Source of the DNA: Bacillota bacterium
GTDB taxonomy: Bacteria; Bacillota; Dethiobacteria; DTU022
Assembly (NCBI GenBank): GCA_018400435.1
Contig: JAGYMW010000019.1
Location: 1-36,291, forward strand
Length of the DNA stretch: 36,291 nucleotides
Direction of reading: 5' to 3'
In this document: positions 3,951 through 34,697 of the stretch, one piece after another
Position numbering within the stretch: position 1 is the first letter of the stretch
How the letters are laid out: the number at the start of each line of letters is the position of its first letter
The notes under the pieces: model-generated
What the model was told of the DNA's origin: nothing
Database searches by the model: none
Seen by the model: only the letters and a program-made list of their open reading frames with translations
Program-made: the position numbers and the translations under genes

Positions 3951-4169
3951 CTATCCCCTGGCCATCAGGGTCCCACATTTGGGGCATTTAATCTGATTGC
4001 ATGGTGTTCCTGCCTGATGAGCAATGCGGTGACCGCAGTTCGGGCATACACATTCACCACCCACGCCAAACCCGGCTCCGCCCATGCGGGCTCTTCCACC
4101 ACCCTGACCGAGGCCACGGCCTGTTCCCGGCCCTTCTCCCCTCGGTCCGCTACCATCTCCTCTGGGCAT
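3951..4169 (-). CDS. Small Gly/Arg-rich protein with C-terminal zinc ribbon
   Basis: A 72-residue protein. The N-terminal MPRGDGSGPRGEGPGTGRG is the low-complexity start typical of small proteins often found beside NifX/NifB-type iron-sulfur or redox genes in anaerobes. The C-terminus holds CPNCGH and CPKCG, two CxxC knuckles of a rubredoxin-like zinc ribbon, plus two further cysteines. Function is not known. The start is placed at ATG 4169 because GGAGGT lies seven bases upstream; an in-frame GTG at 4178 falls within the ribosome site. It follows the cytochrome gene in the same direction, directly after a terminator. Confidence 0.75.
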   Translation of the reverse strand: MPRGDGSGPRGEGPGTGRGLGQGGGRARMGGAGFGVGGECVCPNCGHRIAHQAGTPCNQIKCPKCGTLMARG

Positions 4170-4192
4170 TATAATCACCTCCTCTTCAGGAT

Positions 4193-4247: not shown

Positions 4248-5057
4248 TTATTCAGTAACAAGAGGAAGTCCATCTTTTCCAATCCATCCGTTACTTATGC
4301 CAGACTGCACGGAATAAGCGTCAAAACCGAGCAAATGAAGAACGCCTATCGTCTGACCGGCAGTCTGACCGGAATAGCAACCCACAACGATGGGCTTGGC
4401 ACCGGGTAAATCTTCCAGCAGGTTGCCCATTTCAGCCCAGGCGCTGTGAATAGCACCAGCAATATGACCCTCAGCATAATCTTCGGCCGAACGGATGTCG
4501 ATTACATAGAAGGCATTTGGATTGGATTCCAGTGCTCCATGTAACTCCGGACCGGGAATTATATTATTACCTGAAGCCACAGCGGCAAAAAATTCTTTGG
4601 CCGTTTCCCAGATAATTTCTTCTTTTCCATCAGCCGGTGATGAAACACTGTCCAGGTCGGCAGCAGCGTTCATGCCAGTTTCATCCAAAGGCAGACCGGC
4701 CGATTCTAACCAGCCCAGGCTGATTCCCGACTGAATGGATTTGACATTTTCAAACCCGGCCATCCTCAGAACGGCAACTGTCTGAGCAGCGGTCTGACCA
4801 GAATAACAGCCAACCACTACCGGTTTGGTTCGGGGAATGCGGTCCATGATGTTACCCACTTCAGCCCAGGCACTGTGAACAGCACCGGGAATATGCCCCG
4901 CTTCAAAATCTTCTGCACTGCGGATATCCAGCACAAAAATGGAATTCGGGTTACTATCCAGCATCGCTTTAACATCTGCCGGAGGAATAATATTATTATC
5001 TGTAGCTACTTTGACAAAATAATCTTTTGCAGCTTCCAGCAATACTTCCCCGGCGTC
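4248..5057 (-). repeat. Paralogous double-rhodanese block, copy 2 (inside the cytochrome fusion)
   Basis: The last 269 codons of the cytochrome fusion match 2698-3507 in order and length. Active-site loops VGCYSGQTAAQT and VGCYSGQTAGQT are intact. The block appears to have been joined to, or copied from, a free-standing double rhodanese. Confidence 0.85.
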
Positions 5058-6431
5058 GATAGCCTCTCCCGACTCTTTGTCTTCTTGATCCGCCTCTTCA
5101 CCCGACGGTTCTTCCTGAACTATTTCTCTCAACACATCCACCTGTGGTATCGATCTGACAACCAGGTTCAGATTGGCCTTGCTGTCATTTTCTACTAAAT
5201 CGCTTTCCGCCAGGAAGAGGTATTCGTTACCGTGACAGGCTTCGCAGCTTTCGTTCTGCATGGTCAACCGCTGGACATTATGCATTGACGAATATTTCCA
5301 GTTAGGAATTTCGTCATAATTTTGCAGTTCACCATCAATTGCAGCCAGCGTATCCGGAGCTGTTGGAACATGACGCAGGGAAATATATTCATACGGACGT
5401 TCTTCGGTCCGATCGGGGTTCAACCCGATTTTAAACATAATCCTTTCATTGCCTGTGGTACTGGCTAGAGCTCCATCTTCAGTCATCATTACGTGGCAAT
5501 CATAGCAATTGTTATTAGCAGAACCATGGCAGACCTGGCAGTTCATTGTATCTTCAGAATGGGCTTTGTGAGCCAGAACATCGCTCTCTTCATAAACATT
5601 GCCATGGCAATCAGAGCAACTGGGCAAATCAGCTTCAAAGCGGTTATTTTCCGGCTCCCCGCTGCCGTGGAAGTTACTCTGGTCATGACAGTCGGTGCAG
5701 GTCATTCCCGCATCGAAATGAACATCCGATGTGTAGCCAACCAAACCCATAAATTCACCGGCTACACGGGCACCGTGGCATCCGTAGCATGTCTCTTCAA
5801 CCGGCGGGTTCTCGGCAAACATGTGCTCAGAATGAAGTCCCCCGGTGTAAACCTGCGGCCTGCTGACATGGCATGAGCCACATCCCGAATGGCAGTGAGA
5901 GCAGTTGTCATCAAAGGCATACTGATATGGGCTTCCTTCCTCCATAGTAGAACCGGTGTAGGTAAAGGCTTCCAGCCCCTCCCTCATGCCCTGGACTGTA
6001 TAATGGATAGACCCGGCAAAAGTAGCACCCTGTTCTTCGTGGCAGGTCGCGCAAAGAGCTCCCCCTCCCTCCGCGGAAGGTTGAGTAATCAACCCCTGGT
6101 GAGCTTCCTCCTTGTTGGTAACATTCTGTCCGCTGTGGCAGGTAATGCAACCAAGTTCGCCGTGGGCAGTTTCAACAAAATCAGGATTAACATAGAACAG
6201 TTCCTGACCCCCCAACTGGGGTCCGGCGACACCTCAACCGGCACCAGCAGATGCTTCAGGAATTTCGTACATCGATTCCATTGTTCCAGCATCCAGGTGA
6301 CAAGCCATGCAACCATCACTGGGTGTGGCTCCAAGAGCCGGAGCTGTATTAACATACCAGAGTACTGCTGCAAAAACTAAGACCACTGATGAAACCAAAA
6401 ATATTAATGATTCCTTTCTACGTTTTGCCAA
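4248..6431 (-). CDS. Undecahaem cytochrome c fused to two rhodanese domains, with an in-frame UGA
   Basis: Read as one frame this encodes 727 residues. An N-terminal membrane anchor (about 9-27) leads to CMACH (41-45). After a UGA at codon 66, ten more CxxCH haem sites follow (CITCH, CATCH, CSHCH, CGSCH, CYGCH, CTDCH, CSDCH, CQVCH, CYDCH, CEACH). From about residue 459 come two rhodanese domains with Cys 542 and Cys 685. The start is TTG 6431, six bases after GGAGGT. The part after the UGA has no signal sequence or ribosome site, so it makes sense only if the UGA is read through or is an error; otherwise the gene is broken. The frame is otherwise open with all motifs intact. It lies downstream of the ccm operon with its own promoter. 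Electron transfer to or from sulfur compounds is inferred from the fusion. Confidence 0.75.
6203..6236 (-). promoter_or_regulatory. In-frame UGA with SECIS-like hairpin
   Basis: The UGA is at 6236-6234. Sixteen bases later comes the six-base loop AGUUGG, closed by GACCCC/GGGGUC (6223-6218 with 6211-6206) and extended by CC/GG beyond one G-A mismatch. A stem with a loop 16-37 bases after UGA and a G in the first two loop positions is what published bacterial SECIS models require. The match is necessary but weakly specific, because G+C-rich stems occur by chance. Confidence 0.4.
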
Positions 6432-6538
6432 AACCCCACCTCCTCATGCTGTTTAAACGATACTACCATATTTTACATATGCCAGATTTAATTACACCTT
6501 ATAACTTACAATAAGATTCTTATTCATAACCGGTTTTT

Positions 6539-6623: not shown

Positions 6624-8780
6624 TCAGGTTGTGAAACGCCTCCAAACGGCAATCGCCGTTCCGGCAACCAGCAGAACCGCACCAATGGCAAGGATCGAAA
6701 TGAGTGGCTTAATTTTGACCTCGGCAATAAATATTTCTTCCTCTACAACACTCTCGCCACCCTCAAAGGTAAGCTGCACCATGCCATTATCAGCATCGAT
6801 CTTTTCCATGATAATTCTTTCCCCCCCGGGCAGGATAGCAGGATTATTGATTCGCTCCGCCGGATTCTGAACAATCGTAGGCATGTATTCGCGGAAACCA
6901 TCGCCACCATCCACATCCAGCAATGCACCCACCTCAATTACTTCGGCCTCGGAATGGGATGCAAAGGAAAAATCGCGGAACACTATCAGGTAATCTCCGA
7001 CCCGATATTGTTCATCTTTAGCCAGGACAAACGTTTCTCCGCCTCCGACAATTTGCAGCTCCATGGGGCTGATGTATAAATCACTTAAAATGTTGTGCTG
7101 AATTGCCGGTGAACGCATCACTTGCTCTCCAGCAGTATAAATATTGGGCCTGGCAATGATCACCCGGGTTCCGTCTTCGACCTGGACCACCGGATAGTTG
7201 TTTTCGCCCTCGACAGTGAGACCGAGATAGGTAAATTCCAGGCCCAATGCCTCTACCGGCTCACCCTTTTTGAGATTAAGAAGCTGCGACTCAGTGTAAA
7301 AAGTGGAAGCAAGGACCCCGATAAAAAGCAGAGCAAGGCCGACATGGGCCAGGTAGGCCCCACTAAATTTCAAGCCCGCCTTCACAGTCCTTACCAGCCA
7401 AACGACATTTACGGCAAGGGCCAGGGTCATTATCCCAATGAAAAGTAAATTAAAAAAAGAATTAACGCCGGCCAGGTAAGCAACAATCAATGCTGCAGGG
7501 AAAATAATGAGGATCTTTTTTAACCTGGTAAAGACAACTTTAAACACCTCGTTTTTCCAGCCCAGCAGCGGGCATACAATCAAAACAATAAAAAGAAGGA
7601 AAAATAAAGGGCTATTGGTCTGAAAATAAAACTGCTCATCTACACTGGCCGGGGAACCGAACAACCCGGTCAGAATAGGAGAAAGTGTGCCCAGCAGGAC
7701 CAGCAGAGCTGAAAGGCAAAGCACAACCATCGTTATTACGAAACTGCCCTGGCGGGAGAAAAATCCTTCTGAAGAGCTCTGAACCGGCAGAAATTTAAAC
7801 CTGGCTATATAAAGTGCCAGCCCCGGAACCAGATAGATGAGAACAAAGATTCCCAGTACATAGGTCAGGGCTGTTTCGGCAAAGGCGTGCACGGAATAGT
7901 CAGCCATAACCCCACCGCGAGTGAGGAAAGTAGCGGTAATTATAAGAACAAAAGTGATAATGGCCAGTAAAAGATTGCTTTTTACAAAGCGGCCTTTTTG
8001 CTTCTGGCCAACAAGCCCATGCACAAGAGCCGTAGCCGTCAGCCAGGGAACCAGGGATGCGTTTTCCACAGGGTCCCAGCCCCAGTAACCGCCCCAACCC
8101 AAAACCCGGTAGGCCCATGCCGCTCCGATAAATATTCCCGCTCCCAGGAAAAGCCATCCAGCTCCGGCCCAGGGAAGGGCGCGCAGGAAACCCACTGACC
8201 AGTCTTTTTTCCAGAGAGCAGCAACTGCATAGGCAAAAGGAATAGTAAGCAGGGCATATCCGATAAAGACAATCGGAGGATGGATAACCATCCACGGATC
8301 CATCAACAAAGGATTCATTCCCATACCGTCAGCCGGAACCCGGCCGAGGTCATAAAAAGGAGTTTCCAGGAAAAGAAAGATCATCAGGAATAACTGCCCC
8401 AGGAGAATAAAAGGCATCACCGCTGGCAGCAGCTCTTTTTCCTTTTTCATCAGCAAATAACCGGCCAGGGCAGCCATCAAAGCCCATAGCAGAAAAGTGC
8501 CTTCCTGGCCGGCCCAGAAAGAGGAGACCAGGTACTTTAAAGGCAATTCGAGGTTGGTATGTGCAAAAACATAGTAATACTGGAACTGGTGAGTCAGCAG
8601 GACATACATCAGGTAAACGGAAGCGATTATAATACCCGCCGTATGCAAATGGTAAAAGACATAGGCATAATCAATACCAGCCGATTTGCCGGATTGCGAT
8701 GAAATTGCTTTTTTTAAAAATAGTATTGCCGCCGCAAGGGCGGATCCAAAAGCAATCAGAATACCAATATTACCGATCAT
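6624..8780 (-). CDS. ccmF: Cytochrome c-type biogenesis protein CcmF
   Basis: A 718-residue multi-pass membrane protein. CcmF is the haem lyase core of System I: it accepts haem from holo-CcmE and joins it to apocytochrome CxxCH motifs outside the membrane. The WWD signature GWGGYWGWDPVENASLVPWL spans residues 229-246 or so, and conserved haem-ligand type histidines occur at His 167 (VIHPP) and in ALVHG. A C-terminal periplasm-like domain ends in a last membrane helix and RRFTT. The length is slightly above the usual 620-670. The ATG overlaps the ccmE stop as TAATG, with GAGG upstream. It is the last gene of the ccm run and is followed by the cytochrome it probably matures. Confidence 0.95.
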   Translation of the reverse strand: MIGNIGILIAFGSALAAAILFLKKAISSQSGKSAGIDYAYVFYHLHTAGIIIASVYLMYVLLTHQFQYYYVFAHTNLELPLKYLVSSFWAGQEGTFLLWALMAALAGYLLMKKEKELLPAVMPFILLGQLFLMIFLFLETPFYDLGRVPADGMGMNPLLMDPWMVIHPPIVFIGYALLTIPFAYAVAALWKKDWSVGFLRALPWAGAGWLFLGAGIFIGAAWAYRVLGWGGYWGWDPVENASLVPWLTATALVHGLVGQKQKGRFVKSNLLLAIITFVLIITATFLTRGGVMADYSVHAFAETALTYVLGIFVLIYLVPGLALYIARFKFLPVQSSSEGFFSRQGSFVITMVVLCLSALLVLLGTLSPILTGLFGSPASVDEQFYFQTNSPLFFLLFIVLIVCPLLGWKNEVFKVVFTRLKKILIIFPAALIVAYLAGVNSFFNLLFIGIMTLALAVNVVWLVRTVKAGLKFSGAYLAHVGLALLFIGVLASTFYTESQLLNLKKGEPVEALGLEFTYLGLTVEGENNYPVVQVEDGTRVIIARPNIYTAGEQVMRSPAIQHNILSDLYISPMELQIVGGGETFVLAKDEQYRVGDYLIVFRDFSFASHSEAEVIEVGALLDVDGGDGFREYMPTIVQNPAERINNPAILPGGERIIMEKIDADNGMVQLTFEGGESVVEEEIFIAEVKIKPLISILAIGAVLLVAGTAIAVWRRFTT

Positions 8781-9163
8781 TAGCGATTATCCTCTGCTTC
8801 TTCATATTTTGAGGGACATTTGACAAGAATTTTTTCGGCCTGGAACACTCCTTCGCAGTATTCTCCAACCACGACAACATTTTCCGAATGTTCCAGGTTA
8901 TTCGGTTTTACCCCACTGTAGGTAACGGAAGCCCTGGTTCCCTCTTCGTCAACCAGGTAAAAATGGAGTTCACCGGCAGTACTATCATATTGAATGGGCT
9001 CTCCCTTGACAAGGTAACCGAGCACCTGGACCTGCTGCAGTGTTTCCGCCGCTTCGGCAAATGAAACATAAGGATTGAGAGCAGAGCGAAATGAAAAGAA
9101 AGCAAAACTGGCAAAGACGATAATCACCGCCAAGCCGATTATCCATTTTGTTTTATTCTTCAT
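8780..9163 (-). CDS. ccmE: CXXXY-type haem chaperone CcmE
   Basis: A 127-residue haem chaperone with one N-terminal membrane helix (IIGLAVIIVFASFAFFSF) and a beta-barrel OB domain (VSFAEAAETLQQVQVLGYLVKG, VVVVGEYCEGVFQAEKILVKC). Classical CcmE binds haem covalently through His in an HxxxY motif; here the site reads CPSKY, the CXXXY variant known from archaea and Desulfovibrio, whose systems lack CcmH. The start is ATG 9163, nine bases after GGAG; upstream in-frame codons are not supported because ccmD is encoded there in another frame. It overlaps ccmD by 11 bases and ccmF by one. Confidence 0.93.
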   Translation of the reverse strand: MKNKTKWIIGLAVIIVFASFAFFSFRSALNPYVSFAEAAETLQQVQVLGYLVKGEPIQYDSTAGELHFYLVDEEGTRASVTYSGVKPNNLEHSENVVVVGEYCEGVFQAEKILVKCPSKYEEAEDNR

Positions 9164-9269
9164 CTTTTTTCTCCAACTTTCTGATCCGCAGATCAATCCT
9201 GAGCAGATAAAAGAAAATTCCACCCCAGGCAATCAGCGCAACAATGAGAACAATATACAGATCAGACAT
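9153..9269 (-). CDS. ccmD: CcmD, small membrane subunit of the haem exporter
   Basis: A 38-residue protein with one membrane helix (about residues 4-22, LYIVLIVALIAWGGIFFYLL) followed by a charged amphipathic tail, RIDLRIRKLEKKDEE. This is the standard CcmD plan, in which the protein helps release holo-CcmE from CcmABC. It sits exactly between ccmC and ccmE, overlapping the ccmC end by 8 bases and the ccmE start by 11. GGAAGGTGAAG precedes the ATG. Size, topology and position together make this call firm even though the sequence family is poorly conserved. Confidence 0.88.
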   Translation of the reverse strand: MSDLYIVLIVALIAWGGIFFYLLRIDLRIRKLEKKDEE

Positions 9270-9927
9270 TTTCTTCACCTTCCATTCCAGTTGTCACCGA
9301 GGAAATACGTGAAACAATATTTGCTATCCAAGCGTAAAGGCCAGTAAATCCCACCAGGGAAGCCATAAATACCTGGAACATTTTTGCGTCCATCTGGAAT
9401 CCTGATTCGACACTAATAATCGGATCGGGATGGAGCGTGGCATAGACCCTGGGGATGATGAAAACCAGAAAAGGGACGGAAATAAAAGCGATTATGCTAA
9501 AGACTGAGGCCATCCGGGCCCGTCTTGTTTCATCTTCCACTGCCGATCGCAGCACAAAATAGGCGCAGTAAATCAAAAGAAGAACAAAGATAGAACTCTC
9601 ACGGGGATCCCAGTTCCAGAACATTCCCCAGGTGTAACGGGCAAAAATTGACCCGGTTAACGTAGCCAGAACAGTAAATATTAATCCGATTTCGCCATTG
9701 AGAGCTGCCTTTCGATCATCGATCATCATTCCTTTTTTTAAATAACGAATGCTGTAAATCATGGATATGAGATAGGCCAGGACACTGACCCAGGCCAAAG
9801 GAACATGAAAAAATATTATCCGGGCCAGATCACCCAGGCCAAGGGCGGGCGGAGCATAAATAAAGGCGGCAATAGTGACAAGCGCCATCCATAGGGCAAT
9901 AATAATTTTCAGGACCAGAAAAACCAT
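9262..9927 (-). CDS. ccmC: Haem exporter membrane protein CcmC
   Basis: A 221-residue, six-helix membrane protein that presents haem to CcmE. The WWD-type motif WGMFWNWDPRES occupies residues 100-111, with His 41 (FFHVPLAW) and a later His in ATLHPDP as the expected haem ligands. The length is slightly under the usual 240. AAGGAG precedes the ATG. It overlaps ccmD, and an 83-base gap separates it from ccmB, which is the only larger gap in the operon. Confidence 0.95.
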   Translation of the reverse strand: MVFLVLKIIIALWMALVTIAAFIYAPPALGLGDLARIIFFHVPLAWVSVLAYLISMIYSIRYLKKGMMIDDRKAALNGEIGLIFTVLATLTGSIFARYTWGMFWNWDPRESSIFVLLLIYCAYFVLRSAVEDETRRARMASVFSIIAFISVPFLVFIIPRVYATLHPDPIISVESGFQMDAKMFQVFMASLVGFTGLYAWIANIVSRISSVTTGMEGEENV

Positions 9928-10010: not shown

Positions 10011-10697
10011 TCAATCCTCCCAGACAAAAGAAAAGAGCAAAAGTGAAGCGGTGACGATAATCACCAGGTAAGAAAAAAGAAAGGTCAGTTCGGACAAAAC
10101 ACTATCTGCATTTCCACCTGCCAGAGCAATGCTGGTCCCTCTAATGGCCGTAAGCAAAACGGGCAGCAGAACAGGGAAAGCAATCACGGGAAGCAGAGAA
10201 TTTTTCGCGCCAGCCCTGGAAACCATGGCTGCCAGGATAGTTGTCGCCCCGGCCAGGCAAACCGAGCCGAGAACAAGAAAGGCAACAACCAGCACATAGT
10301 TACTTCCGGGAGAAAGATTCATCAAAAAAATGTAAAGTGGGAAAACAACCACCAGCAGGCCAAGCAGGAGAAGTACATTATAGAGAAGCTTGCCGGTGAA
10401 AATGATCTCCGGGGAAGCTGAAAGCCGCAGAGCGGCAGCCGTCCCCTTTTCTTCTTCCTTGATAAAGCTGCGAGCCAGGGCCGACATGGACGAAAAAAAG
10501 ATGATTATCCATAAGAATGAAGCGTGCAATCCCGCATCCAGGGCAAAAATGCCTGTGGAGAAGCTGACCATCACCAGGGTAGTCAGGGCAAATAGACCCA
10601 TGGAAGTAATGGCATAGCGAGTGCGCAGTTCGTCTACCAAATCTTTTTTAACCAGGGCCCATACTCCCCGGAGCGAGTTGTAAAATATCCTGCCCAA
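10011..10697 (-). CDS. ccmB: Haem exporter permease CcmB
   Basis: A 228-residue ABC permease with six membrane helices. The N-terminal ALVKKDLVDELRTRYAI and the ARSFIKEEEKGTAAALRLS loop are typical of CcmB, which pairs with CcmA and CcmC in haem handling. The start is uncertain: no ATG is available; TTG 10697 gives 228 residues and a 50-base overlap with ccmA, while a later CTG or TTG lies closer to a GGGGAG site. The C-terminus FVWED ends 83 bases before ccmC. Confidence 0.9.
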   Translation of the reverse strand: MGRIFYNSLRGVWALVKKDLVDELRTRYAITSMGLFALTTLVMVSFSTGIFALDAGLHASFLWIIIFFSSMSALARSFIKEEEKGTAAALRLSASPEIIFTGKLLYNVLLLLGLLVVVFPLYIFLMNLSPGSNYVLVVAFLVLGSVCLAGATTILAAMVSRAGAKNSLLPVIAFPVLLPVLLTAIRGTSIALAGGNADSVLSELTFLFSYLVIIVTASLLLFSFVWED

Positions 10698-11283
10698 AGC
10701 GTTCTACCTCCGACGGTTCATTGGTGGCCATAAGAACAATGCCTTTGCTGACCTGATCTTCTATAATGCAGTTAACCAGATCCTTACCTGCCCGGTCGAG
10801 ATTGGTAAAAGGTTCATCGAGAAAGAGAAAAACAGGTTCGTGTAGGAGAGCAAAAGCAAACCTGAGACGCTGTTTCATACCTGAAGAAAAGGTAACAATG
10901 GGATGGTTCATTTCCTCCCCCAGCTGGACCTTCGCCAGCAGTTTCTGCAAAAAATCATTGCTCTTATCAAGCCCTCGCAAGACAGAAAAAAAAGCAAGGT
11001 TTTCCAGCGGCGAAAGCTGACCATAAAATTGCAAATCAGGGGAGACCAGTCCCATATTGCTGCGCAAACTGGACGGGCCGACAATATCTTCCCCAATATA
11101 GAAGGCTATTGTTCCGGCAGTCGGTTTTTCCAGGCCGCAGAGAAGACGGAGCAGGGTCGATTTTCCGGAACCATTTGGCCCGGTTACCACATAACTTTTT
11201 CCCTTTTCCAGCTGCCATGAAATATTTCTAAACACCTTTTTTCTCTGATAACTTTTCGCCAACCCTTTTATCTCTATGCGCAT
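10648..11283 (-). CDS. ccmA: Haem exporter ATP-binding protein CcmA
   Basis: A 211-residue ABC ATPase that powers release of holo-CcmE. Visible are Walker A GPNGSGKST, the Q-loop region, the signature FSSGMKQRLRFA and Walker B VFLFLDEP, with the D-loop TNLDRAG. The start is ATG 11283 (MRIEIKGLAKSYQ), which fits the family and has a GGGGAG site upstream; longer in-frame versions add 30 residues with no homology. It is the first gene of the ccm run. Genes for CcmG, CcmH and CcmI are not in the window. Confidence 0.93.
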   Translation of the reverse strand: MRIEIKGLAKSYQRKKVFRNISWQLEKGKSYVVTGPNGSGKSTLLRLLCGLEKPTAGTIAFYIGEDIVGPSSLRSNMGLVSPDLQFYGQLSPLENLAFFSVLRGLDKSNDFLQKLLAKVQLGEEMNHPIVTFSSGMKQRLRFAFALLHEPVFLFLDEPFTNLDRAGKDLVNCIIEDQVSKGIVLMATNEPSEVERFGQDILQLAPGSMGPG

Positions 11284-11482
11284 CTTCCCAATCTCCCCAT
11301 AAAATGCTCTTCTGTAAACCCTTTTTATCTTAATCATCCTTTTCTGAAGCGTCAAGCCGGCTTCAAATAACAATCCCTTCCCTGAATTGTTTAGGCCTTG
11401 AAACTGGCAAATACGGAAGAACGATTAATTCTAAACCTCTCGTAAAAACAGTGAATTTAAACCCTGTTTAGACAGCCTTAAA

Positions 11483-21233: not shown

Positions 21234-22547
21234 TTAAATACCCTGGTCAGCAAAGCTTCGACCCGAGCCATCCAATTTAATCTTGTACAATGTATCATCT
21301 TCGTCGTGATCAAGATAATAGATCCAATCACCGGCCACTACTATATATCGTACCGCTTCCGGGGTAACCTGTTCCAGGACGGTCCCATCAGTTCTTATCC
21401 TGGTCAGGGCAAAACCTTCATCTTCTGCAGCATAATAAAGCCAATCGCCCACCAGGTTGACAAACCAGGCCGGGTAATCAGTCAGCACTTCTTTGTCCGT
21501 TCCGTCAATACGAATCCTGTAAAGACGGGAATTATCATCCATATTGTTGTAATATATCCAACCGTCATCTGATACGTTTAACCCGCCGGATGGTTCAGTA
21601 TTAACCTGCTCCCTCTCCGTCCCATCAGTCTTCATCCGATAGATAGTTTCATTGTCGTCGACATTAACATAATAAAGCCAATCGCCAGCCGCATTGAGGA
21701 ACCAGGCTGCATCGTCTCCCAGGCGCACCTGAGAGCCACCGTCAGCACTGACACTGTAAATCCTGTTTTGATCATTTTCATTGAGATAAAAAAGTTGATT
21801 GTCAACAAGAGTGACAAACCAAGCCCCTCCGTCAGTCAGGGACGTGCGTTCACTGCCATCAGTCTTAATGCGGTAAAGACGGTTACCGTCGTCACGGTTG
21901 CTGTAAAAAACCCAGTTTCCGATGCTGTTGATAAACCAGGCGGAATCGGCGCTGAACAGACGGACACCGCCTGAATAATCGGCATGAGCCAAAGCCCCGC
22001 CCTCGTTGCTGCGGAAAATTATCCCATCTGCAACAGAAACAGCCAGGCCGCCGTTGGTAATATTACCGGCTGTATTCCCCCTGCCCGAAAGAAAGAGTAA
22101 ATTGCTTTCTTCGACCGGTTCCTCTAAGGGATCCCACGGAGATTCTTCAACCGTTTCCTCCACCTGAGTAACCGGGACTATATAATCCTCTTCAGCCTGT
22201 TCGGCGCCATTGTAAAAAACAAAAAAGTAGATCGCTCCCGCGGCAACCAGCAGGAATAGTACAATGGCAATAACGATAACAGGTGTCATGTTTTTCTTTC
22301 TGACAGAGTCCTTTCCTGCTGCCTTCTCCATCCCGGTTCCAGCAGGTGGAGGCGGTGCAGAGTTCACAAAATCGGGGATGCCGGTAAGCCCGGGCACATG
22401 ATCAGCCCTGGTCCAATCGCCAAGTGCCTGATGCCAGATCTTGTCAGCCGGCTCGATCTTGCCAGTCTTTGATTTCTCCCAGAGCTGTTGCCAGCTGAAA
22501 GGACCGCTCTGTTGATCGTCTTTATACAAATACCAGTCTTCAGTCAT
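21234..22547 (-). CDS. GYF_2-domain membrane protein with seven-repeat extracellular propeller (DUF5050-like)
   Basis: A 437-residue protein. Residues 1-60 form a GYF_2-type domain (WYLYKDDQQSGPFSWQQLW), followed by a Pro-rich linker, a membrane helix (about 91-113, TPVIVIAIVLFLLVAAGAIYFF), an acidic stretch and seven imperfect repeats of about 40 residues with the core AWFxNxxGDWLYYxNxDD and LYRIKTDGT. This resembles DUF5050 and TolB-like propellers, so a seven-bladed propeller outside the membrane is likely. GYF domains bind Pro-rich peptides, here on the cytoplasmic side. GGGAGG inside the 3' end of lgt precedes the ATG, and the genes abut, implying coupling. Function is unknown; a sensor or scaffold is inferred. 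Confidence 0.8.
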   Translation of the reverse strand: MTEDWYLYKDDQQSGPFSWQQLWEKSKTGKIEPADKIWHQALGDWTRADHVPGLTGIPDFVNSAPPPPAGTGMEKAAGKDSVRKKNMTPVIVIAIVLFLLVAAGAIYFFVFYNGAEQAEEDYIVPVTQVEETVEESPWDPLEEPVEESNLLFLSGRGNTAGNITNGGLAVSVADGIIFRSNEGGALAHADYSGGVRLFSADSAWFINSIGNWVFYSNRDDGNRLYRIKTDGSERTSLTDGGAWFVTLVDNQLFYLNENDQNRIYSVSADGGSQVRLGDDAAWFLNAAGDWLYYVNVDDNETIYRMKTDGTEREQVNTEPSGGLNVSDDGWIYYNNMDDNSRLYRIRIDGTDKEVLTDYPAWFVNLVGDWLYYAAEDEGFALTRIRTDGTVLEQVTPEAVRYIVVAGDWIYYLDHDEDDTLYKIKLDGSGRSFADQGI

Positions 22548-23372
22548 TTAAACCGCCTCCCGATTCTTTGTCGACCCTATGATTTTATATAACCAGCATG
22601 CAAATATCAATAAAGCCAGGCCGTAGACTAGAGGCCCGCGGATCAGGTTAGATAAATGGCTGGCCTGGGAAAAGTCGCGAAAATAATAAGTAATAAACCG
22701 TCCCATCGTAAAAACAAGACCGAATACGGCCGCCGCCACCCCGTCACCGGGCCTTCTCCGGTAAACCAGCCATGAGACCAGAGCTGCCAGCAGTCCAGCA
22801 GCCATTTCGTAAAGCTGGGTCGGATGAACAGGCTGCGGTATTAATAAAAAAGGTGATTCTGAAAAATAAACCTGGTTGATATGAACAGGCGAACCGATAG
22901 GGAAAACCACTGCCCAGGGTAAATCAGTTACTTTTCCGTAACAACAGCCGTTTAAAAAACAGCCAATTCTTGTTATCGCCGCTCCTATACCAACATGAGG
23001 AGCCAATCGATCGGTCAATTCCAGGAAAGGCAAGACCAATATTTTGGCTATCAGCCACCAGGCAAACATAGCGGCAGCAAGACCGCCAAAGAGAGTAAAA
23101 TTTCGAAAACTAACTCCACTCAACATGGCAGGATTGGCAATAATTTCCTCAAAATAAAGCAGTCCATAGAGCAATCGTGCCCCAATGAAAAAAGACGTTA
23201 TTAACACCACCAGAATGGCGGTTGTTTTAAACAATCCCAGGCGGCAATGGCGAAAATGGTATACTGCGGCCACGACCAGGTATAAGAGTGTCACCATCCC
23301 AAAAAAACGGTAGGCAGTGACGGGAATAACGCTGCCGTCACCCAGGCTGATAGTAAAAAGAACAGGGTGCAT
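22548..23372 (-). CDS. lgt: Prolipoprotein diacylglyceryl transferase (Lgt) or Lgt-like protein
   Basis: A 274-residue membrane protein with about seven helices. The Lgt signature is visible as AAITRIGCFLNGCCYGK followed by TDLPWAVVFP, and PVHPTQLYEM matches the other conserved loop. Lgt adds diacylglycerol to the lipobox Cys of prolipoproteins, such as the rhodanese lipoprotein in this window. The start is ATG 23372 with AAGGAG upstream; an in-frame TTG at 23414 has weaker support. Two GYF-domain genes flank it tightly, which is unlike usual lgt settings, so a specialised paralogue is possible. Whether another lgt exists in the genome cannot be seen. Confidence 0.85.
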   Translation of the reverse strand: MHPVLFTISLGDGSVIPVTAYRFFGMVTLLYLVVAAVYHFRHCRLGLFKTTAILVVLITSFFIGARLLYGLLYFEEIIANPAMLSGVSFRNFTLFGGLAAAMFAWWLIAKILVLPFLELTDRLAPHVGIGAAITRIGCFLNGCCYGKVTDLPWAVVFPIGSPVHINQVYFSESPFLLIPQPVHPTQLYEMAAGLLAALVSWLVYRRRPGDGVAAAVFGLVFTMGRFITYYFRDFSQASHLSNLIRGPLVYGLALLIFACWLYKIIGSTKNREAV

Positions 23373-23414
23373 TGATACTCCTTGGGCTGCCAAGAACAGC
23401 CCTTCCGGGACCAA

Positions 23415-25868
23415 TTACGGGCTGACTCGCTGAACCCGCCAGACTCCGGACATAACATCTGGTTTATTGTTGCCTGCAGGTACTGAAAAAGTACCACTCA
23501 GGGTATCCTTGCCACTCGGCTGGCCGGTAAAGATCATTTCCAGCCCTTCATCGGAAAAACTGAATCTAACCGTTCCATTCTCATAAACAGCCTCAATGTA
23601 ACGATCCTCCGATGCCTCAGCAGCATTTTCTTCCGGCAGAACTGCATCAAATTGAATCAAAGCTGAACCGGTATAGAAATTTTCTGTTTCTGTCTCCTGG
23701 AATTCCAGAACCATGGGAACATCATTATCCAGGAGGGTCTGCATTAATTCTTTAATCGCTTCGATCATCATCTGGAACATCGCTTCACCAAGATTTTCCT
23801 CGCAGCCATCCACTGCTTCTTCCGCTTCCGGTGAGGGGGTTGGACTATCCATTTCGAGAAAAGCGGAATAAGTGAGGGTCCAGTTCCCTTCCCACCTTCC
23901 GGCAAGCTCGGGTGCTCCCATATCAAAAACAACTTCAACCACTCCGCCAGGATCCGGAAGCTTCAGATCAACTTCCATCTCGTCTTCCCCATCTGGCCCG
24001 AGGCCGGAAAGAACCACTCTACCTGAAGGCTCGGCATTCATCAATCCCAAAAGGGTGCACTGCATTTCCCAGATCCCGTCTTCATCGGTAAATCCCGACC
24101 ACAGGTCCTCATTCTTTCCGACTTCAATAGCTACCGGGAGACCTTCAATTTTTACAGGTACTTCTGCTTCTTCCTCTTCTTCAGGCACAACCACCCTGAC
24201 TCTTATTTTATAAACACTGTTCAGCATGCGGGCTATCCGACGTGCTTCGTTATTGTAGAAACTCTCTGTCCGTTCATACCTGAGCTGGCGGGCCAAACGA
24301 CGAAATACCGGCTGTAATGAATTGACCAGCTCAGCCTTGTGGTTCTCAGCTATGCTTTTTTCCAGGGCAGGATTGTCACCACCCGAATAGCTAAAACCCT
24401 GCCCCATGTCGCCAAAGACAAAGCTCATGCCCTGGGAATCATTCCAGAAAGCATAGACATAGCTGTCAATCGCTTCGGCAATTTTCTTTTCGGCATCTTC
24501 GAATGAAGAAGAATCTTTAGTGATCCAGTAAAATGTTTTATACCAATCAACATTGTTTTTTACTTTAAAGCCGGGCAGAGTCGAGTATTTCGAGTTCCGG
24601 TAATAATACTTTTTGTAAGCATCAACGTACATCTGCTCACGGCCGGCAATAGCGGTGGTGGCAAATTTGTTGAGGCTGTAATCAATAGCAAAAACGCCTA
24701 CCGAAGCAATCTTCATTGCTGAAGTGCCCCATTTACCCAGGGCATAATTACCCAGATCCTTGGTAAACCCAAGAACAGCCGGTGCGGGATTGTCCTGATC
24801 GAGATTAATGGCCAGATTGACAAAGGCTAAACCGAGCCCCATCTCACCCATGGCACTATTGATGCTGTTAAGGGTGGAAACTTCAATTATTTCTTCCAGA
24901 AATGTAGACCCTGTCCCGATTATCCCGAACATATCAGTCGCCGAGTCCCAACCCATTTTGACCGCACCGTCGCCGGGAGTACCTCCTGAGCCCATTTCAG
25001 AAAGGAGCTCAGCAACTTCATCCGTTTCAAGACTGTAAGCACTTGCCGGTAAGAATATCGGCCGGCTTACCATGGCCATTGGCGAATCGGGATCACTCGA
25101 TGAGCGCTTCACTTTCGCAAAATCTGTCAGATGATAAGTATATAGGGTGAGGACATTTTTTGCCTGATCCAGATCATGAACTACCTGATCCCAGGTTCCG
25201 CTTTCCTCATTATAATAGAGGGCACCATAATAATGTTCAGCGTTTTCACCCTGGGGAATTTCCGACAGCTCATAGGGCATTTCAATCTCCAACACTCCGG
25301 GAAGTTCCTTATAATCACCCAGGGTTATGCTGTACACCTCTTCCAGATCTGCATCTGCAGGCGTTGCTTCGTAATCGCCGAGGAAGGTCACATTGAGATC
25401 GGTCGGCTCTTCAAGCATATCTCCGGGTATTTTGACCATCACAGAACCTTCGCGGCCAAAAATTTGTTCTTCTTCTGAAGGCTCTACAGTAGTGGAAATA
25501 AGAACTTTATCCCTTCCGCCAAAAGAAAGAAAAGGAAGATCAAGAAAGGTCACAACGAGAAAGAACAAAGCACCCAGCAGGATCACTCCCCCGCCGATCA
25601 AACCTATTGTCAACAGGGAATTTTTCTTTGGAACCTCTTCTGCCTGCCCGGTAATATTCGATTCAACCGGGTTGTGATCGGACGCAGGTAGAACAGTGGA
25701 ACCGGTAAGCTCCGGAATGCGGTCTGCCCGCTGCCAGCTGCCCAGTTTACTGCTCCAAAGATAATCGTCATCCTTGATATTGCCCGTATGATAAAAATAT
25801 AGAATTTCTTCCCAGCTGTAGGGTCCCTGTTTTTCCCCAGAACGACTGAAATACCATTGACCTGACAA
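23415..25868 (-). CDS. Large GYF_2-domain membrane protein with extracytoplasmic ZU5-like region
   Basis: An 817-residue protein. Residues 1-57 form a GYF_2 domain (WYFSRSGEKQGPYSWEEIL), residues 84-109 a membrane helix, and about 120-260 a ZU5-like beta region (VMVKIPGDML, WDQVVHDLDQ, LYTYHLTDFAKV). A long mixed helical segment (about 270-540) is rich in Gly and aromatic residues, then an Ig-like Pro/Glu-rich part and a C-terminal beta-barrel-like module starting LAGRWEGNWTLTY. The start is TTG 25868 with AAGG upstream. It is first in a three-gene unit with lgt and the propeller GYF protein, served by the promoter at 25984-26013. No catalytic motif was recognised; it is probably a membrane-anchored surface sensor or adaptor. 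Confidence 0.75.
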   Translation of the reverse strand: MSGQWYFSRSGEKQGPYSWEEILYFYHTGNIKDDDYLWSSKLGSWQRADRIPELTGSTVLPASDHNPVESNITGQAEEVPKKNSLLTIGLIGGGVILLGALFFLVVTFLDLPFLSFGGRDKVLISTTVEPSEEEQIFGREGSVMVKIPGDMLEEPTDLNVTFLGDYEATPADADLEEVYSITLGDYKELPGVLEIEMPYELSEIPQGENAEHYYGALYYNEESGTWDQVVHDLDQAKNVLTLYTYHLTDFAKVKRSSSDPDSPMAMVSRPIFLPASAYSLETDEVAELLSEMGSGGTPGDGAVKMGWDSATDMFGIIGTGSTFLEEIIEVSTLNSINSAMGEMGLGLAFVNLAINLDQDNPAPAVLGFTKDLGNYALGKWGTSAMKIASVGVFAIDYSLNKFATTAIAGREQMYVDAYKKYYYRNSKYSTLPGFKVKNNVDWYKTFYWITKDSSSFEDAEKKIAEAIDSYVYAFWNDSQGMSFVFGDMGQGFSYSGGDNPALEKSIAENHKAELVNSLQPVFRRLARQLRYERTESFYNNEARRIARMLNSVYKIRVRVVVPEEEEEAEVPVKIEGLPVAIEVGKNEDLWSGFTDEDGIWEMQCTLLGLMNAEPSGRVVLSGLGPDGEDEMEVDLKLPDPGGVVEVVFDMGAPELAGRWEGNWTLTYSAFLEMDSPTPSPEAEEAVDGCEENLGEAMFQMMIEAIKELMQTLLDNDVPMVLEFQETETENFYTGSALIQFDAVLPEENAAEASEDRYIEAVYENGTVRFSFSDEGLEMIFTGQPSGKDTLSGTFSVPAGNNKPDVMSGVWRVQRVSP

Positions 25869-30423: not shown

Positions 30424-30557
30424 CTGCTTAGCCGGTGAAAAAAGAGTTATTTTTTTTAACTCGAAATACCATGTTATTTAGAAAGGAAAAAAAAGGCCAA
30501 CAGAGAAAGATTAATAATATAATCAACCATAACAGTAAAGCGGGGAGGAACAAGTTG

Positions 30558-33500
30558 ATGAAAATAAGCCAGAATGCCCGGATTACTTATGAAAAACGTT
30601 ATTTAATCAAAGATGAAAAGGGCAACCCGGTTGAAACTCCGGAAGATTTGCTACGCAGGGTGGCGTCCAATATTGCCCTGGTGGAAAAAGAATACGGGAA
30701 AAACGAAGATGAAATCAGGGCGATAGAAAAGAAATTTTTCACCATTATGTCCGAGGCTCTTTTTATGCCCAATTCTCCCACGCTGATGAATGCCGGCCGG
30801 GAGCTGCAACAACTCAGTGCCTGCTTTGTCCTCCCACTTGAAGATAGTATGGAAGGCATCTTCACTGCATTGAAAAATATGGCCCTGGTTCAAAAAACCG
30901 GCGGAGGGACAGGATTCTCCTTCGATCGCCTGAGACCCAGTAATGATATCGTCAAGTCAACCAACGGTGTGGCCAGTGGCCCCATATCCTTTCTAAAAAT
31001 ATTTGACGCCGCTACCGAAGCAGTCAAACAGGGCGGGACGAGACGCGGCGCTAACATGGGATCTCTGATCTACAATCACCCAAACATAATTGAATTCATT
31101 TGCTGCAAAGAAAAAGAAGATGAAGTCAACAACTTCAATTTATCAGTCACCGTATCCGATGAATTCATGCGCAAAGCAACCGGTGAAGATCCAGATCCCC
31201 TCTATACCCTGATCAACCCCCGTACCAAAGAGCCCTATCTCGATCCTGAGAGCGACAATGAGGTCCAGCTCGATGCCCGGGAAATCTTTGATCTGATTGT
31301 CCAGAAGGCATGGGGAAAGGGCGATCCAGGAATTATTTTTATTGAACAGATGAACCGCTTCAACCCCACCCCGCACATTGGCTTTTATGAAACAACCAAC
31401 CCCTGTGTTCCTGGCGATACCTTTGTCCTGACTGCAGAAGGCCCGAGGACGGTAAAAGAACTGACCGGGAAACAGGCTACCCTGATAGTCAATGGAAAAC
31501 CTTTCCATACCACAGAAGCAGGGTTCTTTTCAACCGGAACAAAACCGCTGCTATCAATTCAAACCAGGGAAGGATATACATTCAGGGCTACCGGTGATCA
31601 TCCGGTTTTAAAAGTGATGCGGAAAACAAGATACAGTATTAACCAGGAATGGGTTAAGGCTAAAGACCTGAAACAAGGGGACGAAATAATGCTCCACGAC
31701 CACCGGGAATATTCCGGCTGGAGCGGCCTTTACGGGGAAAAGGAAGGTTACCTGATCGGTCTACTTACAGGAGACGGTACCTTAAAAACTGATAAAGCTT
31801 ATCTATCTGTCTGGCAGGGTCAGGAAGATGCCTCCGGGATCATGTCTGCAGCCTATGAAGCTGACCGGTCCCTGCCCCACCGGAGAGATTTTTCTGGCTG
31901 GTGGAAAGTAAGAGTAAAAAATGAATACAGGATGAGTTCCGCGACAATTAAAAAAACTGCCCTCTCCCTCGGTATGCAGCCGAGGAGCAAAACAATTACG
32001 CCCTACCTGGAAACTAAAACCTCCTCAGATTTTGCCAGGGGTTTTTTGAGAGGTTTCTTTGATGCCGATGGCTCAGTTCAGGGTTCCCAGGAAAAAGGCA
32101 TTTCCATCAGGCTGGCCCAAAGCGATATTGAAAGGCTCCAGGCTGTCCAGCGCATGCTTGCCCGTTTCGGCATTGCCAGCTCCATTTATCCCAACAGGCG
32201 CAGGAATAGAGAAACACTTCTACAGGACAGAAAAAACGGAACCGCTGTCTATAAAACCAGGGCTCAACATGAGCTGATTATTTCCAGGGCTAATGTATCT
32301 GTGTTCGCAGAACGAATCGGGTTTTCGGATACTGCAAAGCAAAGCCGCCTCACCAAAGCACTTACTTCCTATCGCCGCAGATTAAATCATGAGAGGTTCA
32401 CCGCCACAGTTGAAGAAATAATTCACGGCGGCTGTGAAGAAGTATTTGACGTACAGGTCCCGGGAATCAACGCTTTTGATGCCAACGGCGTCATAGTCCA
32501 CAATTGCGGCGAACAGCCACTGCTTCCCTATGAAGCCTGCTGCCTCGGCTCCCTAAACCTGGGCAAATTCGTGAATAAAAATCGCCAGATCGACTTTGAA
32601 CACCTTGCCGAAATAGTCCAAATTGCCGTCCGATTTCTGGACAATGTAATTGATGCCAGCAATTATGTAATTCCAGAAATCGCTAAAATGCACAAGGAGG
32701 GCAACCGCAAGATCGGCCTGGGGATCATGGGCTGGCATGATATGCTGGTCCGCATGGGCCTTAATTACGATAGTGAAGAAGCGCTTGAAACAGCTGAAAA
32801 AGTCGTGTCTTTCATCAACAGCGAGGCCAAGAAAGAATCGGTTAAACTTGCTGCAGAAAGGGGCACATTCCCCAATTTCAAGAGCAGCGTATACGACACA
32901 GGTAGAGAAGAAGATCACGTTCGCAATGCGACCAGGACTACCATTGCCCCTACCGGGACTATTTCCATCCTGGCCGGAGCCAGCAGTGGTATTGAGCCTT
33001 ATTTCAGCATTGCTTTCATTCGTAAAAATATCCTTGGCGGAGTTGATTTACCCGAAGTCAATCCGCTATTCCTTGAAATAGCAGAAAAAGAAAGTTTCTA
33101 CAGTGATGAACTGATCCGCGAGATCGCCGTCAGCGGGAAAATACCCGCCGATGCCAATGTTCCCGAAAAATACAAGGACCTTTTCAAAACAGCCATGGAT
33201 ATCGATTACAGTTGGCATGTCAGACATCAGGCTATATTCCAAAAATATACAGATAATGCCGTCAGTAAAACAATCAACCTGAGCAAAGATGCTACGGTAG
33301 ATGATGTGAAAAATGCATACATAACAGCCTGGGAAGCCGGTTGTAAAGGTATAACTATCTATCGAGACACTTCGCGGACCAAGCAGGTGCTAAATGTTGG
33401 AGACGGCAACCCGGAAGATAACCTCAAACCGATCGAGCGGCCGAAAACCCTGAGCGGACACACCACAAGCATCCGGACAGCACTGGGCAATCTCTTTGTC

Positions 33501-33878
33501 ACCGTCAATACCGCCGATGGCAAACCTTTTGAACTCTTCGCCCAGATCGGCAAGGCAGGAAGCGATGTCATTGCTTTTACCGAAGCGATCGCCCGCCTCA
33601 TTTCGCTGGCCCTGCGTTGCGGTGTAAGCGTCGACGAAATTGTTACCCAGCTTGAAGGAATCGGCGGTGCCCGTTCAGTTGGATTCGGTCCGAACCGGAT
33701 CATGAGTGTACCCGATGCTGTTGGCCAGGCTCTCCAAAAACTGGCCAGCGCTGAAAGCAACAATGTTATTCAGGGTCACAGCGAAAATCGCGAAATCTGC
33801 CCTGAATGCGGCACATGCGCCCTCGTCAGAGTTGAAGGCTGCCTGAAGTGTGAAGCATGCGGTTACAGCGAATGTTGA
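30558..33878 (+). CDS. nrdJ: Adenosylcobalamin-dependent ribonucleotide reductase (class II) with intein
   Basis: A precursor of 1106 residues, giving about 739 after removal of a 367-residue intein. It reduces ribonucleotides for DNA synthesis using B12. Seen are SPTLMNAGRELQQLSACFVLP (redox Cys), KTGGGTGFSFDRLRP, KQGGTRRGANMG, the split active site TNP/CGEQ with the radical Cys at the +1 extein position, APTGTISILAGASSGIEP, a TSCPD-type domain (GGARSVGFGPNR) and a C-terminal zinc-ribbon-like CPECGTC/CEACGYSEC. The start is ATG 30558, nine bases after GGGGAGG; an upstream in-frame extension to 30435 lacks homology. Oxygen-independent chemistry suits an anaerobe. Confidence 0.95.
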   Translation: MKISQNARITYEKRYLIKDEKGNPVETPEDLLRRVASNIALVEKEYGKNEDEIRAIEKKFFTIMSEALFMPNSPTLMNAGRELQQLSACFVLPLEDSMEGIFTALKNMALVQKTGGGTGFSFDRLRPSNDIVKSTNGVASGPISFLKIFDAATEAVKQGGTRRGANMGSLIYNHPNIIEFICCKEKEDEVNNFNLSVTVSDEFMRKATGEDPDPLYTLINPRTKEPYLDPESDNEVQLDAREIFDLIVQKAWGKGDPGIIFIEQMNRFNPTPHIGFYETTNPCVPGDTFVLTAEGPRTVKELTGKQATLIVNGKPFHTTEAGFFSTGTKPLLSIQTREGYTFRATGDHPVLKVMRKTRYSINQEWVKAKDLKQGDEIMLHDHREYSGWSGLYGEKEGYLIGLLTGDGTLKTDKAYLSVWQGQEDASGIMSAAYEADRSLPHRRDFSGWWKVRVKNEYRMSSATIKKTALSLGMQPRSKTITPYLETKTSSDFARGFLRGFFDADGSVQGSQEKGISIRLAQSDIERLQAVQRMLARFGIASSIYPNRRRNRETLLQDRKNGTAVYKTRAQHELIISRANVSVFAERIGFSDTAKQSRLTKALTSYRRRLNHERFTATVEEIIHGGCEEVFDVQVPGINAFDANGVIVHNCGEQPLLPYEACCLGSLNLGKFVNKNRQIDFEHLAEIVQIAVRFLDNVIDASNYVIPEIAKMHKEGNRKIGLGIMGWHDMLVRMGLNYDSEEALETAEKVVSFINSEAKKESVKLAAERGTFPNFKSSVYDTGREEDHVRNATRTTIAPTGTISILAGASSGIEPYFSIAFIRKNILGGVDLPEVNPLFLEIAEKESFYSDELIREIAVSGKIPADANVPEKYKDLFKTAMDIDYSWHVRHQAIFQKYTDNAVSKTINLSKDATVDDVKNAYITAWEAGCKGITIYRDTSRTKQVLNVGDGNPEDNLKPIERPKTLSGHTTSIRTALGNLFVTVNTADGKPFELFAQIGKAGSDVIAFTEAIARLISLALRCGVSVDEIVTQLEGIGGARSVGFGPNRIMSVPDAVGQALQKLASAESNNVIQGHSENREICPECGTCALVRVEGCLKCEACGYSEC
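31404..32504 (+). mobile_element. LAGLIDADG-endonuclease intein in nrdJ
   Basis: The insert runs from CVPGDTFVLTAEG to VIVHN, 367 codons in frame. Block A starts with Cys 1, block B is TGDHPVL, and two LAGLIDADG-type motifs are present (LIGLLTGDGTL and LRGFFDADGSV). The end is block F/G FDVQVPGINAFDANGVIVHN with His-Asn, and the +1 residue is Cys. All splicing residues are present and both endonuclease motifs keep their Asp, so both activities may survive. Removal rebuilds TNPCGEQ, the RNR active site. Confidence 0.95.
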
Positions 33879-34049: not shown

Positions 34050-34697
34050 ATGGCCAGTGAAAACGAGGATAAAGTCAGAAAAATTGAAGGGATTATTTCA
34101 CAAATCCAGGGAGTTGTGTCCGGACGTCTGGTTTGTGAAGATGACAAGATTGTAGAGATTCACGTTCTTGCCGATTCGACCAGGTCACCAAAACAGGTTG
34201 TCCGGGATATTGAATCGGCCGTTCTGATAAAAATGGGTATTGAGCTTGATCGTAAACAGATCAGCGTAGCCCAGCTGGAACCGGGAGTGGCTCCTCCTGC
34301 TTCCAGCGGGATCAGGCTCCTGCTGAAAAGCATTAATTACAAAACTGAGAACGGCCAGGCCACGGTGAATGTAGTAATAAGCAGCGAGGATGCCCAGTTT
34401 TCTGCAACGGCCGCCGGTCAAAACAACCGGCAGAATCGTCTGCGTCTGACAGCATCAGCGACGCTTTCGGCAATTGAACAATATCTTAAAGTGGACAACA
34501 TTTTATTTGTCGGTGACATTCAGGGAACTGCCCTGTACGGTTGTGAACTGGTTATCGTCGCCGTGTGCCTGCACCTGGATAACCGTGAGGAAATTCTGCT
34601 GGGTACAGCTCTGAACAGAGGTGACGATCTCGAATCGGCTGTCCGGGCCTCCCTGGATGCTATAAACAGAAGGCTCTCAGTCTTTAGCCAAAGTTAA
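34050..34697 (+). CDS. Conserved-looking hypothetical protein
   Basis: A 215-residue soluble protein. The N-terminal half (about 8-70, VRKIEGIISQIQGVVSGRLV and IEHVLADSTRSPKQVVRDIES-like pattern) suggests an ACT- or KH-like alpha/beta domain; the C-terminal half (about 85-212) alternates strands and helices with LRLTASATLSAIEQYL and a final RASLDAINRRLSVF helix. There is no signal peptide or membrane helix. A GGGGGAA site precedes the ATG. It sits 171 bases after nrdJ, and that gap shows no terminator or clear promoter. I do not recognise the family, and no function is offered. Confidence 0.7.
   Translation: MASENEDKVRKIEGIISQIQGVVSGRLVCEDDKIVEIHVLADSTRSPKQVVRDIESAVLIKMGIELDRKQISVAQLEPGVAPPASSGIRLLLKSINYKTENGQATVNVVISSEDAQFSATAAGQNNRQNRLRLTASATLSAIEQYLKVDNILFVGDIQGTALYGCELVIVAVCLHLDNREEILLGTALNRGDDLESAVRASLDAINRRLSVFSQS

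Follow-up and report, generated by a model that had tools for sequence, protein, structure and literature searches.

Three haem-type selenoprotein families were listed in a 2026 review: ExtKL, GSU2204, and a TIGR04315 protein annotated with selenocysteine (Sec) (PMC13188914). ExtKL (NF040886, cyt_C_like_Sec), a candidate selenocytochrome of Geobacter, is a c-type multihaem protein with an in-frame UGA and five haems in its N-terminal part, and a rhodanese-like protein is encoded in the same cluster (PMC5877670). In 2007, no SECIS element was found for ExtKL, and no Cys homologues were reported, a situation that it shared with selenoprotein A and that was termed scarce (PMC1914089). The GSU2204 family (NF041027) has been described as an MtrB/PioB-type beta barrel (PMC13188914). 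The octahaem SirA/MccA sulfite reductase and the OTR tetrathionate reductase (TIGR04315) are exported multihaem proteins that handle sulfur compounds.

The window analysed here, a stretch of 36,291 nucleotides from a Bacillota genome, carries a multihaem cytochrome gene on its minus strand (Table 1). A preliminary description, made from the sequence alone, had noted a frame open except for one UGA, with an anchor and the first haem site before it, ten haem sites and two rhodanese domains after it, and neither a ribosome site nor a signal in the downstream part. All of these points held. Retranslation from the TTG at 6431 to the TAA at 4248 met only the single UGA at 6236-6234, which is codon 66; a hydrophobic N-terminal anchor lies upstream of the UGA, and the ten-haem part after it lacks both a signal sequence and a clear ribosome site. 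Both cytochrome c7 and rhodanese (PF00581) Pfam matches fall within this coding sequence, and its homologues align with the cytochrome over its whole length. The start is laid out as in the relative L052/G014, where GGGGGCGGTGGGGTT-TTG is found. We infer from the protein sequence that the cytochrome is exported with eleven c-type haems; it is membrane anchored, and lipoprotein-like in several relatives.

Table 1. Coordinates of the features at the cytochrome locus, numbered from the first letter of the window
Feature	Position	Strand	Detail
Sec undecahaem cytochrome CDS with two fused rhodanese domains (Sec very likely)	4248..6431	(-)	727 aa with UGA read as Sec; TTG start, TAA stop; from translation
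Ribosome binding site AGGAGGTGG before the TTG start	6436..6444	(-)	From sequence
Haem-binding motif 1, CMACH, residues 41-45	6297..6311	(-)	The only one before the UGA; in 16/16 full-length members
In-frame UGA, very likely selenocysteine 66	6234..6236	(-)	Alignment column: 17 genomes with UGA, one with TCA (Ser), none with Cys
SECIS-type hairpin GACCCC-AGUUGG-GGGGUC	6206..6223	(-)	Loop starts 16 nt past the UGA; in 17/17 UGA sequences
Haem-binding motifs 2-11	5232..6149	(-)	Start residues 95, 127, 177, 184, 215, 245, 272, 298, 309, 396
Rhodanese domain 1, residues 484-571, loop CYSGQTA	4719..4982	(-)	PF00581, two stretches, 8.5e-26 for the protein
Rhodanese domain 2, about residues 628-718, loop CYSGQTAG	4278..4550	(-)	Second PF00581 stretch; ChrE model 628-718
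75-aa ORF between the two rhodanese genes, DUF5320-like, zinc-ribbon-like	3951..4178	(-)	DUF5320 match below cut-off
Separate double-rhodanese lipoprotein, 331 aa	2698..3693	(-)	PF00581, 7.5e-27
ccmF, cytochrome c haem lyase, directly upstream	6624..8780	(-)	PF01578 and PF16327
ccmE, haem chaperone	8780..9232	(-)	PF03100
ccmC	9262..9927	(-)	PF01578
ccmB	10011..10697	(-)	PF03379
ccmA-type ABC ATPase	10648..11373	(-)	PF00005; named by its position beside ccmB

The genome to which the window belongs is a 1.97-Mb MAG-like assembly of 137 contigs (87% complete). It contains a tRNA-Sec with anticodon TCA (71.8 bits) and, in tandem on one contig (C45), selA and selB. The selD frame carries a UGA of its own in the context AAG-U-ASK, the usual Sec/Cys site of SelD. 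Because the Sec machinery is complete and SelD carries UGA at this site, UGA is used for Sec in this genome. selA was also present in all 21 other genomes that hold members or distant relatives of the cytochrome family, in one case as a fragment at a contig end.

Relatives were sought in the genome contigs, in the order, in the class, and in 399 genomes sampled from the phylum. The contigs gave one relative (L021, Peptococcaceae MAG M1_7_4); the class holds seven members, the window included, and further members lie outside it. Class searches around G211 and G201 yielded no additional members, and a plasmid search found no copies of the family. TGA stood at the same alignment column in 17 sequences, counting the window, from 17 genomes and about ten bacterial families, in the contexts AG-U-GVAGPQL, GG-U-GVAGPQL, GG-U-GAPPPPL, GG-U-GVSAPQL, GG-U-GAPGPQL, ES-U-AGPPPP, and EG-U-AGPPPP. 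Full-length identity of the relatives to the window protein ranges from 33 to 70%, with similarity running on unbroken across the UGA and the residues flanking it well conserved. The UGA is found in 17 of the 18 members that have the loop. The exception, G477, reads TCA (Ser) in an unbroken frame with the hairpin intact (L065 1597-1599, G477:C120). Because the tree places G477 as sister of a Sec member (support 100/100), the Ser looks like a recent loss of Sec in which the SECIS has been left behind; a base error in this 72% complete assembly is also possible. The whole Sec loop is missing from the distant relatives G134, G288, G397, and G467. No relative found in the order, the class, or the 399-genome phylum sample has Cys at residue 66. 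In one UGA member (L027 1471-1899, G024:C16), the frame breaks after the fifth haem site, and this is probably a decaying or truncated copy.

The preliminary description had kept a fresh nonsense mutation or a sequencing error as alternatives, to which a pseudogene can be added. The window does come from a MAG assembly, and the relative in G024 is broken further downstream. However, the same UGA recurs in 17 genomes, single-contig and near-complete ones among them, and explanations of this kind failed and are all but excluded.

The bacterial SECIS model asks for a hairpin directly downstream of the UGA with a G in the first two loop bases. The preliminary description had placed the beginning of a stem-loop, with loop AGUUGG and such a G, 16 bases after the UGA. 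This was partly correct: the distance of 16 nt fits the start of the loop AGTTGG (6217-6212), whose second base is the G, and the stem GACCCC/GGGGTC (6223-6206) starts after 10 nt. A hairpin satisfying our rule (a loop of 3 to 7 nt with G as its first or second base, within a limited range of distances) was present in every UGA sequence, and in every gene it scored above the mean obtained by synonymous recoding with that gene's own codons (joint z = 6.6, p ~0.001 or less). The scoring was chosen after a first look at the sequences, and the sequences are related, so this z is an upper value. A comparison of eight close members showed two-sided changes at three of the six base pairs of the stem, and the covariation score beat 500 of 500 shuffles and dropped when the register was slid. 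Plain folding energy over the 36 nt after the UGA showed a modest effect (mean z of -0.85 versus -0.12 in control windows, p 7e-4), weaker than the hairpin-rule test.

The UGA could alternatively be a real stop separating two cistrons conserved as a pair, the first for a short haem peptide and the second for a cytochrome, a possibility raised for ExtKL in the absence of a SECIS (PMC1914089). We regard this as very unlikely. The SECIS accompanies the UGA in all 17 sequences, the ten-haem part lacks the signal sequence and clear ribosome site of an independent exported product, conservation extends to both sides of the UGA, and one relative reads Ser in an unbroken frame. We conclude that UGA 6236-6234 very likely encodes selenocysteine in a genuine selenoprotein; there is no protein-level proof of Sec. 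The tRNA-Sec and SelB would decode this UGA as Sec, with the hairpin at 6223-6206 serving as the SECIS. The preliminary description had inferred Sec 66 and proposed checking it against the sel genes of the genome, residue 66 of the homologues, and a SECIS prediction at the hairpin. The first check recovered tRNA-Sec, SelA, SelB, and SelD; in the second, 16 relatives outside this genome proved to have UGA in the corresponding column; and the third gave a conserved rule-satisfying hairpin with compensatory changes. All refutation tests that were run favoured selenocysteine, and the inference is supported.

Eleven CXXCH motifs are present in 15 of the 16 full-length Sec members, and ten are present in the remaining one. 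Outside these motifs, nine His residues are invariant across the 16 (90, 111, 143, 203, 238, 255, 288, 291, and 384), and a tenth, His 354, is present in 13. Two members have nine nonmotif His in total; because they have 11 haem motifs, at least two of their haems must lack a distal His, and such haems, by inference, resemble those of catalytic multihaem enzymes. Residue 66 is the only invariant thiol or selenol outside the haem motifs of the full-length members. An AlphaFold model was of moderate quality (pLDDT of 68.6 overall) with the Sec loop unordered (pLDDT of about 36), and a fold search with this model against the PDB gave no useful match. Because of the low loop confidence and the lack of a fold match, the Sec-haem distance cannot be read from it. 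A sequence and profile search of the PDB returned NrfA-type chains only, and these very weakly.

A different role for Sec would be that of a distal haem ligand, or of a residue on the high-spin catalytic haem, in an octahaem-type sulfite, tetrathionate, or nitrite reductase, with the rhodanese as an auxiliary. In support of this reading, at least two haems have no conserved distal His, Sec alone among the conserved residues outside the motifs is a candidate ligand, and the authors of PMC10376724 placed a probable member of the family with SirA/OTR at 22% identity. However, the loop is Gly rich and predicted to be unordered, an unusual environment for a haem ligand, no SirA/OTR-type model scored above cut-off, and the NrfA-type matches are very weak. 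We therefore consider a haem-ligand role unlikely.

The family is associated with rhodanese. The PF00581 match of the window protein reached 90.8 bits against a gathering score of 22.2, with the catalytic Cys in the loop CYSGQTA, and both the fused C-terminal half and the neighbouring gene are clear members of the rhodanese proteins. The gene order in the window is ccmA-ccmB-ccmC-ccmE-ccmF, the Sec cytochrome-rhodanese fusion, the 75-aa ORF, and the separate double-rhodanese lipoprotein. The lipoprotein shares 79% identity with the rhodanese part of the fusion, from which we infer that the fusion probably arose by local duplication with loss of the cytochrome stop codon. Fusion of rhodanese to the selenocytochrome was seen in the window only; the relatives have a free-standing cytochrome, usually with a separate rhodanese as its neighbour. 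The two genes adjoin in G014, G076, G089, G086, G181, G201, G121, G211, G132, G167, G477, and M1_7_4, the rhodaneses of G086, G089, and M1_7_4 being called by sequence likeness only, and no adjacent rhodanese was seen at the G091 and G173 loci. A rhodanese is adjacent, or in the window fused, in nearly all cases. Other neighbours include ResB/CcsA-type cytochrome assembly genes (G167), cytochrome b561 with a hexahaem protein (G211), and a molybdopterin oxidoreductase (G121). At the G014 locus (L023 1501-1506, G014:C27), the cytochrome stop TGA is directly followed by TAG, a tandem arrangement near the point where the window gene runs on into its rhodanese part.

Like ExtKL, the family combines c-type multihaem character and an in-frame UGA with a rhodanese-like partner, and it has no known Cys homologue, which it also shares with selenoprotein A. 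In contrast to ExtKL, the family has 11 haems, the first two of which bracket the Sec, and a SECIS was found. Membership in ExtKL was rejected, as there was no family match to NF040886 (curated cut-off, 250 bits). With SirA/OTR the family shares export and multiple haems, from which it is set apart by its 11 haems, Sec loop, and rhodanese partner; TIGR04315 membership was rejected on the grounds of eleven rather than eight haems and of scores among which nothing passed the cut-off (one member at E 0.0037). Like GSU2204, the family consists of selenoproteins with CXXCH motifs, but the NF041027 model does not match it. By these model tests, the Sec undecahaem family is none of the three reviewed haem-type families. 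No curated NCBIfam model (June 2026) claims the cytochrome family, text searches for such a protein within a collection of papers found nothing else, and it is likely a new family that is absent from the lists searched.

The protein could still be a selenoprotein that acts in selenite or tellurite reduction, as proposed for ExtKL. The clustering of that multihaem candidate selenoprotein with the rhodanese ExtH and its link to selenite reduction (PMC5877670) speak for this, as does a weak similarity of the ExtM/ExtN models to the window family. However, the ExtKL model does not match the family genes, and the ExtM/ExtN models score far under their cut-offs, at a level that many multihaem cytochromes reach. 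No Ext-type cluster lay beside the Sec cytochrome at the loci examined, and we find this role unlikely.

The explanation that we prefer to these alternatives is a Sec protein forming a haem/rhodanese unit for sulfane sulfur, and taken as a whole it has a slight balance in its favour. Sec would sit on a flexible Gly-rich loop (GG-U-G..PxL) that lies between the first and second haems, and its selenol would take over, or be attacked by, the sulfane sulfur held as a persulfide on the rhodanese cysteine, while the haem chain would supply (or remove) electrons. The cytochrome-rhodanese pair may act as a noncanonical thiosulfate/polysulfide-type reductase or, in reverse, as an oxidase. What the data show is that the UGA is conserved, that the Sec machinery and a SECIS are present, that the protein has 11 haem sites, and that rhodanese is associated with it; sulfane-sulfur chemistry with the rhodanese could as easily prove wrong as right, its substrate, its direction, the Sec-rhodanese step, and thiosulfate or sulfane-sulfur reduction all being inferred.

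Published physiology bears on this proposal. Dethiobacter alkaliphilus AHT1 lacks canonical sulfur and thiosulfate reductases, and its DealDRAFT_1917 directly adjoins the rhodanese DealDRAFT_1918 (PMC5609068). DealDRAFT_1917, a multihaem cytochrome with 22% identity to SirA, is upregulated on thiosulfate (PMC10376724). In G076, the sole rhodanese gene adjoining a multihaem cytochrome is that of the Sec cytochrome locus, and we infer, without a named record, that G076 is D. alkaliphilus and that DealDRAFT_1917 is the post-UGA part of the Sec cytochrome. The DealDRAFT_1917 homologue of strain Z-1002 was detected during Fe(II) oxidation alone (PMC10376724), a pattern less easily reconciled with sulfur reduction. 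A bolder reading, which we offer tentatively and with the balance against it, is that this family without Cys counterparts, with a haem-wired swinging selenol arm that reduces (or oxidises) sulfane sulfur brought by a dedicated double rhodanese, is the missing thiosulfate/sulfur reductase of Dethiobacter-like bacteria in which the canonical enzymes are absent. If true, sulfur respiration would here follow a new design, one that joins eleven haems, a selenol, and the persulfides of rhodanese in a single unit. Thiosulfate and sulfur reduction by Dethiobacter-type bacteria without known enzymes becomes a testable question.

Selenoproteins without Cys homologues are rare. Standard gene finders split the gene at the UGA, so that a respiratory protein family of anaerobes is misread, and proteomic searches should include U at the position of residue 66.

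Elsewhere in the window, a 215-aa ORF at 34050-34697 (+) has no Pfam match. At 21234-25868 (-), the gene for prolipoprotein diacylglyceryl transferase (Lgt) is flanked by those for a 437-aa and an 817-aa protein, each bearing GYF_2 at the N terminus and one of them also DUF5050. The ribonucleotide reductase large chain at 30435-33878 (+) contains an intein carrying a LAGLIDADG domain (PF14890, PF14528).
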